Below are positions 45,137 through 53,580 of a DNA stretch of 53,580 bases, in pieces. The notes under the pieces are model-generated. The model saw only the letters and a list, made by a program, of their open reading frames with translations, did no database searches and had not been told where the DNA came from. Source of the DNA: Thermomicrobiales bacterium (lineage in GTDB: Bacteria; Chloroflexota; Chloroflexia; Thermomicrobiales; UBA6265); assembly GCA_020432165.1 (NCBI GenBank), contig JAGQGU010000018.1, forward strand, positions 1-53,580, written 5' to 3'. The translations under genes and the position numbers were made by a program. Position 1 is the stretch's first letter, and each line of letters opens with the position of its first letter.

Positions 45137-45296
45137 GCATCACCCGGGGTAAACCCCGGGCCTACGCATCATCACGTAGGTCTGCATCACCCGGGGGTAA
45201 ACCCCGGACCTATGCATCATCACCTGGGTCCGCATCACCCGGGGATAAACCCCGGGCCTACGTATCATCACGTACGCCCGCGCTTTACGCGCGGGT
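45137..45296. repeat. Tandem array of CCCGGGG palindromes with a GCGCGGG unit at its end
   Basis: Three units begin at 45137, 45184 and 45232 (GCATCACCCGGGG, a GTAAA- or ATAAA-type loop, CCCCGGG, CCTACG), period 47-48 bases. A fourth, different stem CCCGCGC-TTTA-GCGCGGG ends at the lysZ stop codon (45297). The stems differ, the flanks are the same. Confidence 0.85.
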
Positions 45297-46103
45297 CTAC
45301 GCGATCACGGTCCCCTTGCCCGCCAGGGCAGCCGTAATGGGTGCGTCGATGCGGGCATCGGCGAAGATGACCTGTTGTACGCCTGCCTCAACTGCTTTCA
45401 CCGCCTGCTCCACTTTCACCACCATACGATCGGCGGCAGCGGAGAGGGCTGCCTCTGGATTACTCGCATCCACATGAGTGATCAATGTGCTTTCGTCATA
45501 GCGATCGGCCAGCAATCCCGGAGTGTCGCTGAAGAAGAGCAACGCCTCGGCGCCCATTGCTTCGGCGAGCCCCAACGCCAGCTTGTCGCCATCGAAGTTG
45601 ATAGGCACACCACCTTCGGAATAGCCTGGCGGCGAGACGAGTACCACATAGCCAGCATCCATCAGCGTATTGATCACCGCTGGATTGAACTCCTTAACGG
45701 ATCCCGCATGGTCATCGCGTAGCACTTTCATCTTGCCATCGGTATCGGTGCCACGAATCTCAGCCTTGCGCATCCCTTCCGCGATACCGCCATCGATTGC
45801 GCTAAGACCAACCGCGTTAACACCCTCGGCACGAAAAGCCGCCACCGCCCGCTTGTTCACCTTGCCACAATAGGCCATGAGCATGGCGTCCATGGTTTCG
45901 GCATCGGTGTAGCGGGTCACGCGTCCGCTCTTGCTGGTGATCTTGCGCACGGGAAGACCAAGCTGCTCACAGAGCGTGCTGAACTCGGCATTCCCGCCGT
46001 GAACGACCACAACGGACTGATTGAGGGTAGCAATATCCCTGGCGAAGCGAGTGTAGACATCTGCACCGATACCGGCACCGCCACCGATTTTGACAACGAT
46101 CAT
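45297..46103 (-). CDS. lysZ: LysW-aminoadipate (or acetylglutamate) kinase
   Basis: An amino-acid-kinase-fold protein of 268 residues: IVVKIGGGAGIGAD (phosphate loop), VVVVHGGNAEFSTL, NKRAVAAFRAEGVNAVGLSA, INFDGDKLALGLAEAMGAE and LLFFSDTPGLLAD. LysZ phosphorylates the carboxylate of LysW-gamma-aminoadipate; ArgB does this with acetylglutamate. The VTRYTDAETMDAM stretch and the short length are typical of LysZ-like enzymes of Thermus and archaea. It starts at the ATG at 46103, 42 bases after the end of the MFS gene. The TAG stop lies in the CGTAG end of a palindrome repeat. Confidence 0.88.
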   Translation of the reverse strand: MIVVKIGGGAGIGADVYTRFARDIATLNQSVVVVHGGNAEFSTLCEQLGLPVRKITSKSGRVTRYTDAETMDAMLMAYCGKVNKRAVAAFRAEGVNAVGLSAIDGGIAEGMRKAEIRGTDTDGKMKVLRDDHAGSVKEFNPAVINTLMDAGYVVLVSPPGYSEGGVPINFDGDKLALGLAEAMGAEALLFFSDTPGLLADRYDESTLITHVDASNPEAALSAAADRMVVKVEQAVKAVEAGVQQVIFADARIDAPITAALAGKGTVIA

Positions 46104-46145
46104 GGGCAATCTCCTGGCGCTGCGCACCAATGACTCTTTCTACGA

Positions 46146-47432
46146 TTATCGTGCATCCACCATTGCTGGTGTCGGAATGCTGCGGGTAGAGACAAGGACA
46201 ATAGCGGATATCAATGCGATCAACGCATAGACGCTGAAAACCAGCGCGTAGCCGTGGAACCATTCCACCGCAATTCCAGTAACGACAGGCGCCGATGCCA
46301 GAGCAATAGTGAGAATGGCCGCAAGCGAGCCATTGACGGCGCCGAACTCGCGCACATCGTAGTGGTCGAGCAGAATGGTTGGCCGCAACAGCGTCAGCGC
46401 CCCCCGCCCGAAACCGAGCAGAATCGCCGCAATCACCATCGTCATTCCCGTCGGCCAGATCACCAATATCACCACTGCCACCGCCTGGAGGGCAAACATC
46501 GCCGCCGCCAGCATCGTTTCGTTAGCCGCACGCCCAAAAACGGTCACGACCACACGGGCACCAGTCTGGGCAGCGCCGATGATACCGGCAGTAAGTGCAG
46601 CGGTAGTTGGCGAAACTCCCTGATCGACCAGGTACGCGATCATATAGACCGCGACGGCATTACTCACGAATGACTGCAGGAAGAATGCCAATGAAAAGCG
46701 GCGAAACCAGGCAGTTTGAATGAGTTGCCGAAATGAGGCGATGATGCTGGGTCGATCGCGATGGGCATGTCCCTCAGGCGGAGCACGCAAGACCATAGCA
46801 TGCGGCAGAATAGTTGTGACGGCGAGAAAAATCATGAGATAGACCAGCGCATCCCGCCAGCCAAAGCGATGCTCCAGCCAACCGGTCGCAGGGAGAAAGA
46901 CGGTCGATGCGAGACCGCCGAGAAAGGTGATGATGAGCATGGCCTTGCCCCGATTGGCGCGGTACCAGGGAGCAATAGCGGCGAACGCGGGATCGTAGAG
47001 CGTACAGGCCATGGCGATACCCATGCCGATCCAGACGAGATAAAAGTGCGGGATCGATTCCGTGCGCGACCAGGCCAAGAGCATGATGGCGCCGAGTATG
47101 GAGCCGAAGGTCATTAACCAACGGGCACCGCGGGCATCGATCCAACGACCGACCATAGGTGCGAGCAGTCCGGAAACGAGTGTTGAGAGCGAATAGGCGC
47201 CGGTGATGGTCGCCTTGGACCAGCCAAGCTCGTCCTGCATCGGCACAAGGAGTGCAGAGAAGGCGTAGTAGAGAATGCCCCAGCTGATGAGTTCGGTCCA
47301 GCCGAGGGTCCAGGCGAGCGGCCATAGTGCGTGATCCTGCGAATCGCGGCGAAAGTCCTGCGAGTCGCGAAGCGATTCCGAAGGACCCCCCGGTGGTGCA
47401 GACGCACCACCGGTCCAAAATCTCCTCACCAC
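46146..47432 (-). CDS. MFS transporter between lysY and lysZ, with a repeat-encoded N-terminus
   Basis: An inner-membrane MFS protein of 428 residues with 12 predicted helices. It includes APMVGRWIDARGARWLMTFG, the loop between helices 2 and 3, and WYRANRGKAMLII. Oxalate/formate antiporter or MCT-like in style. The first 33 residues (GGASAPPGGPSESLRDSQDF and so on) come from a copy of the leader/repeat element, and no canonical start codon lies between that and the first helix (LAWTLGWTELISWGILYYAF), so the only in-frame starts are GTG at 47432 or 47429. Possible substrates are dicarboxylates or an amino acid; lysine export is only a guess. 42 bases separate it from lysZ. Confidence 0.8.
   Translation of the reverse strand: MVRRFWTGGASAPPGGPSESLRDSQDFRRDSQDHALWPLAWTLGWTELISWGILYYAFSALLVPMQDELGWSKATITGAYSLSTLVSGLLAPMVGRWIDARGARWLMTFGSILGAIMLLAWSRTESIPHFYLVWIGMGIAMACTLYDPAFAAIAPWYRANRGKAMLIITFLGGLASTVFLPATGWLEHRFGWRDALVYLMIFLAVTTILPHAMVLRAPPEGHAHRDRPSIIASFRQLIQTAWFRRFSLAFFLQSFVSNAVAVYMIAYLVDQGVSPTTAALTAGIIGAAQTGARVVVTVFGRAANETMLAAAMFALQAVAVVILVIWPTGMTMVIAAILLGFGRGALTLLRPTILLDHYDVREFGAVNGSLAAILTIALASAPVVTGIAVEWFHGYALVFSVYALIALISAIVLVSTRSIPTPAMVDAR
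47383..47416 (-). promoter_or_regulatory. Leader element copy 2, inside the MFS 5' end
   Basis: On the minus strand GGACC, inner stem GGTGGTGC-gtct-GCACCACC, GGGG bulge, GGTCC, then TTCGGA. The inner stem is 8 bases. It is preceded by GGAGATTTT. It lies just inside the open frame of the MFS gene rather than ahead of it. Confidence 0.55.
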
Positions 47433-47719: not shown

Positions 47720-48772
47720 TCAGATTGGGTGAAGCCCCGGGAACTCGAGGCCAGTGCGCTCGGAAATACCCAGGCGGATGTTCATCGCCTGCACAGCCTG
47801 GCCAGCAGCGCCCTTCATCAGATTGTCCGTAGCAGCCATCACGACCACGCGGCGGCTGTGGGGATCGCGCTCGAAGCCAACATCGCACCAATTGCTGCCG
47901 CTAAGCAGCTTCGGTTCCGGATAGCGATGCACACCGACATTCTCTTTCACAAGTCGCATAAAGGGCTCATCCTTGTAGGCCTCACGATAGATCTTGCGCA
48001 GGGCTTTATCGTCCAGATCCTCGTTCAGGAAGACATGACTGGTGGCGAGAATGCCACGGACAGCCTCGATACTGGTGGCGCTGAAGCTGATCTGGGGGGC
48101 ATTGCCATTGAAGGTAAGCTCCTGAATCACTTCGGCAGTGTGGCGATGTCCGGTTGGTTTGAACGAGCGAATCACGCCGCTGCGCTCGGAGTGGTGACTG
48201 GCCAGGCTCGGCGAGCCACCGGAGCCGGAACTACCGGTCTTCGCCTCGACGACGGCTGGCATGGTGAGATCGACCACACCCGCCTGATAGAGCGGATAGA
48301 GACCAAGAATCGAGGTCGTGCTCATGCAGCCAGGTGAGGCGATCCAGTCGGCTTCGCGAATCTCATCGCGATGCAGCTCTGGCATGCCATAGACAAATTT
48401 GCCGAGCGCAGCCAGATCGGTGTGTTCATGGCTATACCAGGTAACATAATCGCCCGGATTGCTCAGGCGGAAGTCGCTGCTGAGATCGATGACGATGGGC
48501 GCGAGATCGCGAACGGCTGGCAGCTTCTCCATACTCACGCCATGTGGCAATGCCAGAAAGAGGAGATCGCTCGGCTTGAGATCGGCGCTGGCGATGAACT
48601 TCAGGTTGGTGACCTCGCGCAGATTGGGATGCGTCGATTTCACGAACTTGCCAGCCTGGCGTTCGCTGGTAACCTGCGTCAGCTCGATATTTGGGTGCTG
48701 CAGAAGCAGGCGCACCAGCTCACCCCCCGCATAGCCCGATCCGCCAATGATAGATGCTGTCAGCTTTTCCAT
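47720..48772 (-). CDS. lysY: LysW-aminoadipyl phosphate (or N-acetyl-gamma-glutamyl-phosphate) reductase
   Basis: A protein of 350 residues with the ArgC/LysY semialdehyde-dehydrogenase fold: TASIIGGSGYAGGELVRLLL (NADP-binding), LPHGVSM, DLSSDFRLSNP, the active-site Cys of WIASPGCMSTTSI, and GSSGSGGSPSLASHHSERSG, plus FKPTGHRHTAEV with the catalytic His. It reduces the acyl phosphate made by LysZ to the semialdehyde using NADPH. Thermus LysY and archaeal relatives share the SSGSG segment. Start is the ATG at 48772 with AGGAGGAG five bases upstream; the longer frame is repeat sequence. The SD overlaps a hairpin (see 48782-48829). Confidence 0.92.
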   Translation of the reverse strand: MEKLTASIIGGSGYAGGELVRLLLQHPNIELTQVTSERQAGKFVKSTHPNLREVTNLKFIASADLKPSDLLFLALPHGVSMEKLPAVRDLAPIVIDLSSDFRLSNPGDYVTWYSHEHTDLAALGKFVYGMPELHRDEIREADWIASPGCMSTTSILGLYPLYQAGVVDLTMPAVVEAKTGSSGSGGSPSLASHHSERSGVIRSFKPTGHRHTAEVIQELTFNGNAPQISFSATSIEAVRGILATSHVFLNEDLDDKALRKIYREAYKDEPFMRLVKENVGVHRYPEPKLLSGSNWCDVGFERDPHSRRVVVMAATDNLMKGAAGQAVQAMNIRLGISERTGLEFPGLHPI

Positions 48773-48781
48773 AATGTCTCC

Positions 48782-48897: not shown

Positions 48898-49091
48898 CGG
48901 GCGGATCCTGAAAGGTATCCGCCCCTGTTCCCCCGGGGATAAGGGCAGCGGACTGCCACCTGCGGTACCTCGGGGCTACGTCTTTGTCAGCGTACGCCCG
49001 CACTTTAGGTGCGGGTCATTGGGTTTCCCCCGGGGATGCAACCCCGGGGCTACGTCTTTGTCAGTCTCTCCCCGGGGATAAACCCCCGGGG
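48898..49091. repeat. Palindrome cluster between lysX and lysY
   Basis: The 319-base gap 48773-49091 holds no gene. After the leader element it contains GGGCGGAT...ATCCGCCC (48898-48924), a CCCCGGGG unit whose loop carries an inserted GGGCAGC... segment, CCCGCAC-TTTA-GGTGCGGG, and two CCCCGGGG units at the end, the last of which supplies the lysX stop region. Confidence 0.8.
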
Positions 49092-49952
49092 CTACGAATT
49101 GCCTTCTCCCAGCCGGATCACGTAATCCACAATTCGGGCGGGAATGTTCACCCCGGTGGTGTGGATGCTGTTCCGGAACTCCATCGTGTAATTCACTTCG
49201 TTCACCATGATGCCACGGTCGGTCTCGAAGAGATCGATAGCAACCACTCCACCACCTACAGCCTCTGCCGCACGACGACTGAGGTCATCGAGTTCGGGCG
49301 TAATCGGGCAGTTGCTCGCCTTCGCACCACGGGCGGTGTTCGTGATCCAGTGATCGCTGGTGCGATAGATACCGCAGATCGTCTCGCCATCGACGACAAA
49401 GGTACGGATATCGCGCCCCTTCTTCTCTATGAATTCCTGGATATAGAAGGCTCCATGGTGAAATGAGCCGAGTGTGAGCTTGTGCTCCAGCAAGGCCTCG
49501 GCGGCGTCACGATCGTTGACACGGCTGAGCAGTCGCCCCCAACTACCCACTGCGGGCTTGAGCACCACCGGGTAGCCCATCTCCTCGATCGCGCGAATCC
49601 CACTCTCCTCGGTATAGGCGATCATCGTCCGTGGCGTGGGCACGCCAGCGCGGATGAGGGCAGAGGTGGTCAGCATTTTGTCGCCGCAAACTTCGGCAAC
49701 CTCATACCTGTTGACCGTGGGAATGCCCCAGTCATTGAGAACGCGCAAGGTATAGAGCGCCCGGAGGTGATTGATACAGCGCTCCAAAATAACATTGCAC
49801 GATGTGAAGGCGGGATCCGGTGCAGCGAGATCGAGGGTGAACTCGCGGTCATCGAAGCGCACCAGCTCCACCCCACGCGCCACCAACTCCTCGGCGAGCA
49901 GTTTCTCCTCGACACGTACCCGACTCTGGAGCATACCAACCCGAATCGTCAT
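49092..49952 (-). CDS. lysX: LysX, ATP-grasp ligase joining alpha-aminoadipate (or glutamate) to LysW
   Basis: An ATP-grasp enzyme of 286 residues. N-terminal substrate region [23 protein letters not shown]-binding K132 in [40 protein letters not shown]; magnesium-binding N-E-V-N (251-254) in [15 protein letters not shown]. LysX makes an isopeptide bond between the C-terminal Glu of the carrier LysW and the alpha-amino group of 2-aminoadipate, protecting it through the pathway. The [18 protein letters not shown] ending is what Thermus LysX has, so this is the likely aminoadipate enzyme. It overlaps the paralogue upstream by four bases (ATGA). Confidence 0.92.
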
Positions 49953-50863
49953 ACGTGCACCCCTACTCCATCCTGATAAACACGAAACGCTTCTTCCACG
50001 ATCTCACCGGCGATATCGCGATCGGTCGTGGTCATGAGTCCCTTGAACTCGCCACCAGTGTTGACCTCAATCACCTTCAAGCCTTCGTTCGTCTCGATCA
50101 GATCGACACCTGCCAGGCGAGCACCCACCGCTTCGCAGGCACGCAGCGCCAAATCGTGAATCTCGGGTGTGATCGGGCATGGCACACTCACCGCACCGCG
50201 GGCGGCATTTGTAATCCAGTGCTCACTGGTGCGATAGCTGGCGGCCACGATGTCCCCACCAACGACATAAGCCCGGATATCGCGACCAGGTTTCTCGATA
50301 AATTCCTGGATGTAGAAGATCTCGTGCATCACCGAACCGTGCTCGGATTTCTGGGCAATGATGGCACGCGCCTGTTCTGGTCCATTGACGCGGCTGATGA
50401 GGCGGCCCCAGCTACCCGCAACCGGTTTCATCACGGCCGGATACCCGAGCTGCTCACAGGCAGCGATGGCGGATTCGACCGAGTAAGCGACAAATGTTTT
50501 CGGGCTCGGGATGCCGGCAGCTTCCAGCACCATGCTGGCACGAGCCTTGTCATCACAGACGCTCACCGATTCGGCGGTGTTTAGCGTGGGGATTCCCCAG
50601 CGCTGCATCGCCCAGAGGGTGTAACCGGCTCGACTGTGCGCCACCGAGCGATCGAGCAGGACATCGATATCGATACCGGATTCCGCAGCCGTAGGTGCAG
50701 AGAGATTGAGCGTGAGATTACGATCGAAGATGGGAGTCACTTCCATCCCGCGCGCCCGTGCCGCTGAGAGAATGAGTTTTTCCTCCTGCCGCAGCCAGGA
50801 GACGAGGACACCGAGACGGAGTCCTGATTTGTCGCTGATTGGTGCCAAAACAGATCCTGACAT
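49949..50863 (-). CDS. Second LysX-family ATP-grasp ligase (possible ArgX)
   Basis: A protein of 304 residues, paralogue of lysX, all key residues kept: [46 protein letters not shown] and [19 protein letters not shown]. The final loop reads [12 protein letters not shown] rather than [13 protein letters not shown], so the side chain of the amino acid bound is probably different. In archaea an ArgX acts on glutamate for arginine synthesis, so this could be its counterpart, though no direct evidence says so. ATG at 50863 has no ribosome site; TTG at 50848 has AGGA six bases upstream, is 35 bases past a leader element, and may be the real start. Confidence 0.85.
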
Positions 50864-50929: not shown

Positions 50930-51124
50930 CGGGCTGCCCGTGCATAAAGCACGGGCCTCCGTATCGCTCCCGAGAGACAATGCCACCCGTGTCCAGCGTA
51001 GGCCCGGAGTTTAGCCCCGGGCTTCGGACCGGGATAACGGCGGCAGAGCCGCCGTTGCGGGCGGATACTCTTCGAGATCCGCCCCTACGTAACCCATCCC
51101 CGGGTATGAAACCCGGGGCTACGT
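50930..51124. repeat. Palindrome cluster between lysK and the second lysX
   Basis: Units: GCCCGTGC-ATAA-AGCACGGGC CTCCG, a CGTAGGCCCGGAG-TTTA-GCCCCGGGC type, GGCGGC-AGA-GCCGCC, GGGCGGAT...ATCCGCCC CTACG and CCCCGGG-TATGA-AACCCGGGG CTACG. The last ends next to the lysK stop at 51125. Confidence 0.8.
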
Positions 51125-52225
51125 CTACAAGTCGCCCACAAGGGGCGACACTACCGAGCCTCCGAAGCTCCTCAGGACTTGTGTCAGCACCCTCACGGCC
51201 TGCAGATACTCTGCCAACTCGATCCGCTCATCCGGGGTGTGATCCAGACTGGAGTCGCCAGGGCCATAGGCCACAATCGGGCAACCCCACGCCGGACCAA
51301 CCACGTTCATATCGGATGTCCCCAGCTTCAACGTGAACCCCGGCTTCCCACCCTCCTGGCGGATACTGCGCAGGAATGGTGGCACCAGTTTGCTTTGCTT
51401 GGTGGTGCGATACCCCTCCTGCAAGCCATCGATATGCAAGTTCGCGTCGCCAGCGAGCTTGTAGAGTCTCTGGGTAAGCTTCGCGACATCCAGATCCGGG
51501 GGCAACCGCAATCCGATGGAAAGCTCGGCAACATCTTCAAGTCCATTACTGGTGGTATTGAAGCTGCGCAGGCTGGGACCAATGCTCCAGAAATTCCCCT
51601 TGGCATCGGCGTTCCAGGAAGCAATCTCATCCTGCAAAGCGTTCCAGAATGTGACCGCCTCCTGTGCGACCGATTCGCCAGGACCGGCGGTGTGGCGACT
51701 ACTGCGCTTCAATGTGTAGATCAGCGAGTACGAGCCACGATAGCCGAGGCAGAGCGCATCCCACCCACTCGGCTCGCCGATGATGCAATAGGCCGGTGCT
51801 GGCCAGGTGGCGATTTCGTTGGCCCCGGGCGATCCAATGACTTCCTCACCCGTAGCACCGACAACCGTCACCGTACAGTTAAGATCGGAAGCTGCCCGGC
51901 TTGCCGCCGCCACAAAGGTGGCAAGCGGACCCTTGGCATCGACGGCTCCGCGTCCCCAGAGCACACCATCCACAATCTCAACCGGGATGTGCCCTGGTAC
52001 GGTATCGATATGACCAAGCAGCACGATATGCATATCGCCGGAACCAATCCGACCAATGGCGCTACCCGAGGTAGACTCGATCAGCTCGAAGCCGCGACTG
52101 GCCATAACACCGCGCAGATACTGCACGGCATCGCGTTCCTGATGCGAAAGGCTGGGAATGGCAACAAGCGAGCGCAAGAGCTCGATATCGAGCTGATCCT
52201 GATGCTGCTCAGGTGAGAGCGACAT
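51125..52225 (-). CDS. lysK: LysK, M20-family hydrolase releasing lysine (or ornithine) from LysW
   Basis: A metallopeptidase of 366 residues, M20/ArgE-DapE group: VLLGHIDTVPGHIPVEIVDG (metal His and D), the bridging Asp in GRGAVDAKGPLATFV, catalytic E-E in VVGATGEEVIGSPGA, CIIGEPSGWDALCLGYRGS and, at the end, the metal His in GDSSLDHTPDERIE. LysK cleaves LysW-gamma-lysine to lysine plus free LysW, and in some organisms also LysW-ornithine. Length and motif order match Thermus LysK. The ATG at 52225 lies 17 bases inside the upstream LysX-like gene, so the two are translationally coupled. Confidence 0.92.
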   Translation of the reverse strand: MSLSPEQHQDQLDIELLRSLVAIPSLSHQERDAVQYLRGVMASRGFELIESTSGSAIGRIGSGDMHIVLLGHIDTVPGHIPVEIVDGVLWGRGAVDAKGPLATFVAAASRAASDLNCTVTVVGATGEEVIGSPGANEIATWPAPAYCIIGEPSGWDALCLGYRGSYSLIYTLKRSSRHTAGPGESVAQEAVTFWNALQDEIASWNADAKGNFWSIGPSLRSFNTTSNGLEDVAELSIGLRLPPDLDVAKLTQRLYKLAGDANLHIDGLQEGYRTTKQSKLVPPFLRSIRQEGGKPGFTLKLGTSDMNVVGPAWGCPIVAYGPGDSSLDHTPDERIELAEYLQAVRVLTQVLRSFGGSVVSPLVGDL

Positions 52226-53072
52226 TGCGCACCTCCTTCTCCCGCGCCATAAGTTTGCGCAAGGCATGGGCAGCAATCGCATCTTCCACGGTTGTCTCGC
52301 CAAGGAGGGTCGCTTTGCGAAAATCCGCCAGTGGCACGGCATCCCACGCTACCCATTCGCCATGTTGCAGTGCCACATCCACGGCAATACTACCCGCGTC
52401 AATCGATTTGGCAGCAAATTCGGCCACCGCCAGCGCCTCGGCCGGGGGGATTCGCTCACCATCGACCGCAACCGCTGTGAAACCAGCCACGTGGAGGCGA
52501 TACCATTCGGTGTCACCGATGGTTGCACCGGCCTGCAAGATCACAATCTCTTCTTCATCCGTACCGAGCACCACGCGATGCTCAATAACGGCATCGGCGG
52601 TATCAGCATCAGCCAACGAAACCGGCGCGCTGCTGTGAATGGTTGGAAACATCGTGGCTGGATAGCCAAGCTGATTGGCCGCGATGATCGCTGTGCTTTC
52701 GCTAAAAGCCGCCAGCGTGGCCGGTCGCGGCACACCAGCCGCATCCCAAACCGTAGCCACCTGGAGACGGTTGCGGCGACTGGCGACACCACCATCGATA
52801 ATCGTCACACCGGCCTGCCGGAGCAGGCGATTGATGATGCGACCAACAGCGCGGTTACTGATGCGATCGATCATCACCAGCGGGATAGCATCGTCGTTAC
52901 CGGATGCAGCCGCGACGAAGCGCTGAACATCGTGGAGGGTAGGACCGGGAGGCAAGGGCATGGCCGCGGGAGGGATGGGCATGGTGCAAACACCCGCGCG
53001 CTCAAGCGCGGCGATGACCAATTTTTCCTCAACGCGGACGCGTGCAGTGAGCACGCCAATTGCCGTTGCCAT
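52209..53072 (-). CDS. Third LysX-family protein with lost ATP-grasp residues (pseudoenzyme)
   Basis: A protein of 287 residues. Homology to LysX is clear at the start ([20 protein letters not shown] against [20 protein letters not shown]) and in AAGVPRPATLAAFSES...NQLGYP. But the ATP lysine is F142 (GYPATMFP for GYPVVLKP), the Gly-rich GSWGRL loop is HSSAPV, GRDIR is TEWYR, and the magnesium site N-E-V-N is AWDAV. An extra segment (residues about 30-62, Pro-rich) is present. So ATP ligase chemistry seems lost while the fold is kept. Coupled to lysK (17-base overlap). It could bind LysW or aminoadipate as a regulator, or be a subunit of LysX. Confidence 0.75.
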   Translation of the reverse strand: MATAIGVLTARVRVEEKLVIAALERAGVCTMPIPPAAMPLPPGPTLHDVQRFVAAASGNDDAIPLVMIDRISNRAVGRIINRLLRQAGVTIIDGGVASRRNRLQVATVWDAAGVPRPATLAAFSESTAIIAANQLGYPATMFPTIHSSAPVSLADADTADAVIEHRVVLGTDEEEIVILQAGATIGDTEWYRLHVAGFTAVAVDGERIPPAEALAVAEFAAKSIDAGSIAVDVALQHGEWVAWDAVPLADFRKATLLGETTVEDAIAAHALRKLMAREKEVRNVALT

Positions 53073-53152: not shown

Positions 53153-53580
53153 CTCAACCCCGGGTATAAAACCCGGGGCTACGTTGAGCGGCGTGGCCCC
53201 CGGGTTGGAGGGTCGTCTCCCGAAGCCCGGGGATCAACCCCGGGCCTACGTCTGGGCGCGAGGCCCCCGGTTGAGTCCAGATTCCCAGGTAGGCCCGCGC
53301 TTTATGCGCGGGTTCGAGAGTCGGTCTCTCAACCCCGGGTATAAAACCCGGGGCTACGTTGAGCGGCGTGGCTCCCGGGTTTAGCCCGGGGGTTTCAGAG
53401 TCGTCTCCCAAACCCCGGGTATAAGGGCTCGCTCCGCTGCTCGTGGTTCGCTTTGCTCACCACTCGGCCGCCTTCGGCACCCCGGGGCTACGTCTGGGCT
53501 CGAGGCCTCCGGTTGAGCCCAGATACCCAGGTAGGCCCGCGCTTTACGCGCGGGCTCGAGAGTCGGTCTCTCAACCCCGG
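53153..53580. repeat. Large compound repeat array running off the window end
   Basis: The last 508 bases (53073-53580) contain no gene. A composite unit starts with CTCAACCCCGGG at 53153, again at 53328, and a third begins at 53570. The first unit is 175 bases, the second 242. Each holds, in order, a CCCCGGG palindrome, a CTCCCGGG-type unit, a TCTGGGC...GCCCAGA stem (9-base arms in unit 2), and CCCGCGC-TTTA-GCGCGGG. Unit 2 has a longer loop insertion of about 67 bases in its second palindrome. LysW was not found in this stretch. Confidence 0.85.

Follow-up and report, generated by a model that had tools for sequence, protein, structure and literature searches.

The LysX-like protein encoded between lysW and lysK in the bacterial order Thermomicrobiales, labelled PSX here (gene and protein alike), is with high confidence a conserved and functional pseudoenzyme that is non-catalytic in families f1–f3, and it almost certainly does another job than ligase catalysis. 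Its gene lies in a 53,580-nucleotide stretch of DNA (the window, contig positions 1–53,580) from a genome of family f1, the families of the order being numbered f1–f5. To our knowledge, little has been established about how bacteria regulate the LysW pathway, and pseudoenzymes have rarely been reported among ATP-grasp ligases.

The PSX locus and its conservation

Genes at the locus follow the order lysW - PSX - lysK - argX - lysX - lysY - MFS - lysZ. The overlap of PSX with lysK described in an earlier note on this DNA was found again, with lysK starting at the ATG at 52225 and its protein beginning MSLSPE. Matches to homocitrate synthase, sought as a marker of the AAA route, were all below cut-off. 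A GC-rich intergenic repeat with the core CCCGGGGCTACGT occurs at window positions 45251–45263, 48969–49097, 51112–51124 and 53172–53493 (9 copies vs 0.09 expected at ≤1 mismatch, all on one strand); several copies sit between lysW and PSX and others between operon genes. The lysW–PSX gap in the nearest genome is only ~134 bp.

Table 1 Coordinates of PSX and of the surrounding genes
Feature	Position	Strand	Remarks
PSX (LysX-like pseudoenzyme)	52209..53072	-	287 aa + stop, TGA 52209-52211
PSX/lysK overlap	52209..52225	-	17 nt, PSX 3' end on lysK 5' end; read directly
GGAGGT of lysK	52231-52236		within PSX codons, just upstream of lysK start
lysK ([LysW]-lysine/ornithine hydrolase, M20)	51125..52225	-	366 aa; NF003367 390.5 bits, cut-off 363
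argX-type ligase	49949..50863	-	signature NTGGEF, catalytic motifs all intact; TIGR02144 296.6 bits + motif table
lysX-type ligase	49092..49952	-	signature NYTMEF, catalytic motifs all intact; TIGR02144 336.6 bits + motif table
lysY/argC-like reductase	47720..48781	-	start inferred at MEKLTAS
lysZ/argB-like kinase	45297..46130	-	
MFS transporter gene	46146-47432	-	between lysY and lysZ; closest NCBIfam models are ArsK / monocarboxylate, none reaching its cut-off
lysW	contig 53674-53829		94 bp beyond window end

Among 61 Thermomicrobiales genomes searched (five families), lysW was found in 41, and in every one of these PSX lies directly downstream of lysW, followed by lysK and then argX wherever the contig extends. 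Many of the genomes are fragmented MAGs, and the 20 in which lysW was not detected, through real loss or a gap, are uninformative on PSX retention. One genome of the same genus (G003, 91% complete) has no lysW and no match to PSX or LysX paralogues; it is either an auxotroph, a user of another pathway or an assembly with a missing contig. The overlap of PSX with lysK measures about 17–23 nt in several f1 genomes, and in f3 the two genes abut or are spaced. The lysX-type copy moves, residing on other contigs in f3 and at a different location in f4, while PSX keeps its place beside lysW-lysK-argX. In genome G021 (locus L049, 6379–7750, minus strand) a lysX-type gene is apparently split into two overlapping frames, by an assembly frameshift or in reality.

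Searching 41 near genomes at the protein level recovered orthologues at 37–76% identity across the family. The window PSX and its counterpart in the closest genome share 76% identity (E=5.7e-135) with a dN/dS of 0.16, and PSX is therefore a real coding sequence. Over 13 genome pairs, pairwise Nei-Gojobori dN/dS values were 0.10–0.36 for PSX, 0.03–0.39 for lysK and 0.02–0.19 for argX; the several dS values above 1 are rough. Constraint on PSX is clear, though in most pairs weaker than on its lysK and argX neighbours, and these ratios indicate that it is under purifying selection. The homologue search that the earlier note had proposed for conserved degenerate copies yielded 42 distinct copies forming one clade; no complete copy contains an internal stop, and the copy of G021 is split by a contig break. 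Thus, the proposal that a LysX-like pseudoenzyme is kept by selection beside lysK is borne out by the retention and the dN/dS values, and the two outcomes named as evidence against selection, copies broken by stops and the lack of homologues with the same substitutions, were looked for and not encountered.

In the tree all PSX proteins form a single clade with support of 100/97, from which f5 and then f4 branch first. PSX groups with the argX side there (support 98/96, long branches being flagged), whereas in the sister order (f8; loci L212–L214 and L216) an intact lysX occupies the PSX slot in the order lysW - lysX - lysK - argX - lysY - lysZ, so that slot position favours a lysX ancestry and the tree an argX ancestry. 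To look outside Thermomicrobiales, 84,980 species were scanned with the f1 profile and 301 genomes at phylum level with an f2/f3 profile; the loci checked gave only normal LysX with GSWGR, the motif checks being limited to loci fetched from the scans. Two out-of-order ATP-grasp matches, L257 and L261, were rejected as PSX although both are without GSWGR. L261 (2704–3552, minus strand; genome G062 of family f7, same class) is a second LysX-like paralogue that keeps most ATP residues, with GDKGS in place of GSWGR and SGDKN in place of NTARG; it is perhaps an independent early step resembling f5. In family f11 of the same class (G078, G084, G088, G089, G094, G098, G102 and G128), lysW is tandemly duplicated or triplicated, with copies ~200 bp apart.

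Lost, retained and newly fixed residues

The earlier note had described catalytic residues replaced within an intact frame, and this is what the window PSX contains: residue 142 is Phe at the second ATP lysine of LysX, residues 243–246 are W-D-A-V at the metal-site N-E-V-N, and GSWGR, GRDxR and NTARG are absent. With respect to the ATP lysines, K89 is replaced by Arg and K129 by Phe; of the metal ligands D237 is kept, E249 is Asp and N251 is lost. In a Pfam search no RimK domain was found, and the protein matches the first 29 positions of LysX_preATP_grasp only (26.9 bits, cut-off 27). Against the NCBIfam model LysX_arch TIGR02144 (cut-off 275.6 bits) the window PSX scores 43 bits, two f3 copies 109–115 and f5/f4 copies 247–251. 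Because these LysX models miss PSX or score it far below cut-off, automatic annotation would probably call the window PSX hypothetical.

Degeneration is graded across the families, from f5 through f4 and f3/f2 to f1. In f5, K89, K129, GRDLR, D237, E249 and N251 are all retained, and from this set f4 has lost only N251. K89, E249 and N251 are gone in f3, which retains K129, and f1 has lost K129 as well; E249 is kept in no f1–f3 copy, and K129 survives in 19 of the 42 PSX. The description of a loss of all catalytic parts is thus nearly accurate for f1, but not for f5 and f4, which keep most ATP/Mg residues. Since living families (f5, f4, f3/f2, f1) preserve the stages of this process, the transition from enzyme to pseudoenzyme could be replayed stepwise.

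Common to all copies are the losses of NTARG and GSWGR. The latter motif is kept in none of the 42 distinct PSX copies and deleted in 21/21 f1 copies, as against at least 137 of 138 active LysX/ArgX in which it is kept, the remaining row being truncated or misaligned. GSWGR recognises the LysW tail EDWGE (PMC10433800), and therefore the shared loss includes carrier reading. Loss of GSWGR is apparently the shared and earliest loss in the PSX clade, and binding of the LysW tail by PSX in the usual mode is unlikely. PSX is moreover acidic (mean pI about 5.0–5.2 in f1–f3), as is LysW (net charge −16 in the window genome). This apparently first and universal loss of GSWGR and the shared acidity make the suggestion that PSX binds LysW or its loaded form less convincing.

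Other features have been preserved. The earlier observation that the N-terminal RVRVEEKL region is close to LysX is upheld, the PSX N-terminus with RVRVEEK matching that of the neighbouring LysX-type ligase, and the window PSX retains the AxAVIEHRxVLG helix. R10, E13 and R55 are present in every PSX copy covering those positions. Within the helix, E153-H154 are invariant in 42/42 PSX (119/138 and 116/138 in active LysX/ArgX), and R257 is likewise invariant among PSX. There are also new residues: Arg at position 89 in all 39 copies of f1–f3 (39 of 42 overall), W-D for N248-E249 in 21/21 f1 copies and Pro for W135 in 16/16 f3 copies. Residues newly fixed in a dead active site are a sign of new use rather than of drift.

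Predicted fold and relation to 5I47

AlphaFold models have a full LysX-like fold, with pLDDT values of 79.9 for the window PSX and 88.0 for an f3 member. The best PDB matches in Foldseek were 3VPD, 3VPB and 5I47, of which 3VPD and 3VPB were the top ones for the window model (E=4e-16, prob 1.00). The models thus place PSX in the ATP-grasp superfamily with a predicted LysX/RimK fold (pre-ATP-grasp + ATP-grasp). PSX has in common with LysX/ArgX (T. thermophilus LysX, 3VPD; S. tokodaii ArgX, 3VPB; T. kodakarensis LysX, 5K2M) the fold, the N-terminal RxRxEEK, the AEAxxEH helix and the operon, and the slot that it fills in Thermomicrobiales holds LysX in the sister order. Unlike these enzymes, all PSX have lost GSWGR and NTARG, and those of f1–f3 also K89 and the E/N metal ligands.

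PDB entry 5I47 from Sphaerobacter thermophilus, released on 2016-03-16, was deposited under the generic name 'RimK domain protein ATP-grasp'. The PSX of an f3 genome (G038) matches it full length over all 274 residues with 565 bits, whereas the window f1 protein scores 45 bits; judging by this full-length match, 5I47 is a PSX family member with a solved crystal structure. It represents an f3 member with K129 kept, and the window PSX is further degraded. The clade, or 5I47 family, is defined by the slot lysW-PSX-lysK, monophyly, GSWGR loss and the invariant EH helix, all of which the window PSX has. In our search of the non-subscription literature, we found no paper mentioning 5I47 and no functional description of PSX. 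The earlier remark that no description of such a protein was known agrees with this as to function, but an orthologue structure has been public since 2016. This orphan structure can now be assigned to a pathway and a genome context, with partners open to testing.

Possible functions of PSX

Fold, slot, N-terminal motif and EH helix are common to all PSX, while carrier reading and catalysis are not, which speaks for a role near LysW-LysK-ArgX that is structural or regulatory. Our best explanation, held tentatively and at a little short of even confidence, is that PSX may be a regulatory or scaffold subunit of the LysW pathway. PSX would keep the ligase fold and assemble with an active ligase and/or LysK; the ligase partner would most likely be the argX-type enzyme, which is favoured because PSX always travels with argX. 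It would tune the activity or the feedback inhibition of its partner, perhaps by binding an end product (Lys, Arg or Orn) in a refitted pocket. The closest working analogy would be the effect on HisG of HisZ, an inactive histidyl-tRNA synthetase paralogue; like PSX, HisZ descends from an enzyme, has lost catalysis and has been retained in a pathway of amino-acid biosynthesis. As the regulatory paralogue in HisG-short ATP phosphoribosyltransferase, HisZ stimulates HisG and conveys inhibition by histidine (PMC9734150). That role was established experimentally, whereas ours for PSX is inferred, and the two proteins share no sequence relation. Counting against a subunit, pathways with the same genes in the sister order work without PSX, and its faster evolution relative to lysK and argX in most pairs fits a peripheral role no less well than that of an obligate subunit. 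A stronger version is possible, though rather less than probable: PSX could be an obligate regulatory 'prozyme' of LysW-mediated Lys/Arg synthesis throughout Thermomicrobiales that senses end products in its reconstructed active site, with Arg in place of K89 and Trp-Asp where the metal site was, and would then be the first pseudoenzyme of the carrier-protein amino-acid pathway.

PSX might instead bind the LysW body (the zinc ribbon) or loaded LysW and protect it or deliver it to LysK, leaving the tail unread. Its place in every genome, flanked by lysW and lysK, the gene overlap suggesting coupled synthesis with lysK and the retained N-terminal pre-ATP-grasp residues speak for this, but the reader of EDWGE is gone in all copies and both proteins are acidic, so that we regard it as unlikely. 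The new invariant W-D at the old metal site suggests a refitted pocket, and control of the operon is unexplained, no Rfam family having reached threshold and no riboswitch having matched in five operon loci; PSX could thus be an amino-acid sensor outside the ligase complex, acting for instance on transcription or transport. We consider that distinctly improbable, for PSX has no added DNA-binding or membrane part and is tied to enzyme genes in every genome. PSX could also have remained an enzyme and altered its reaction, in agreement with the intact ATP-grasp fold and with the residues that f5 and f4 retain; this is very unlikely given that f1–f3 are without the Mg ligands E249/N251, and f1 without both ATP lysines, yet remain constrained.

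Two further readings give the PSX protein no role of its own. As a translated leader kept only for coupling lysK translation, PSX would account for the overlaps in the window and in several f1 genomes, but its amino-acid sequence is constrained over the full length and the f3 genes do not overlap, which makes this highly improbable. Loss of catalytic residues and a dN/dS above that of most neighbours would also be expected of a decaying duplicate; this reading, to which we give almost no credence, was rejected on the single ancient origin, the retention in 41/41 genomes with intact frames, dN/dS well under 1 and the new invariant residues.
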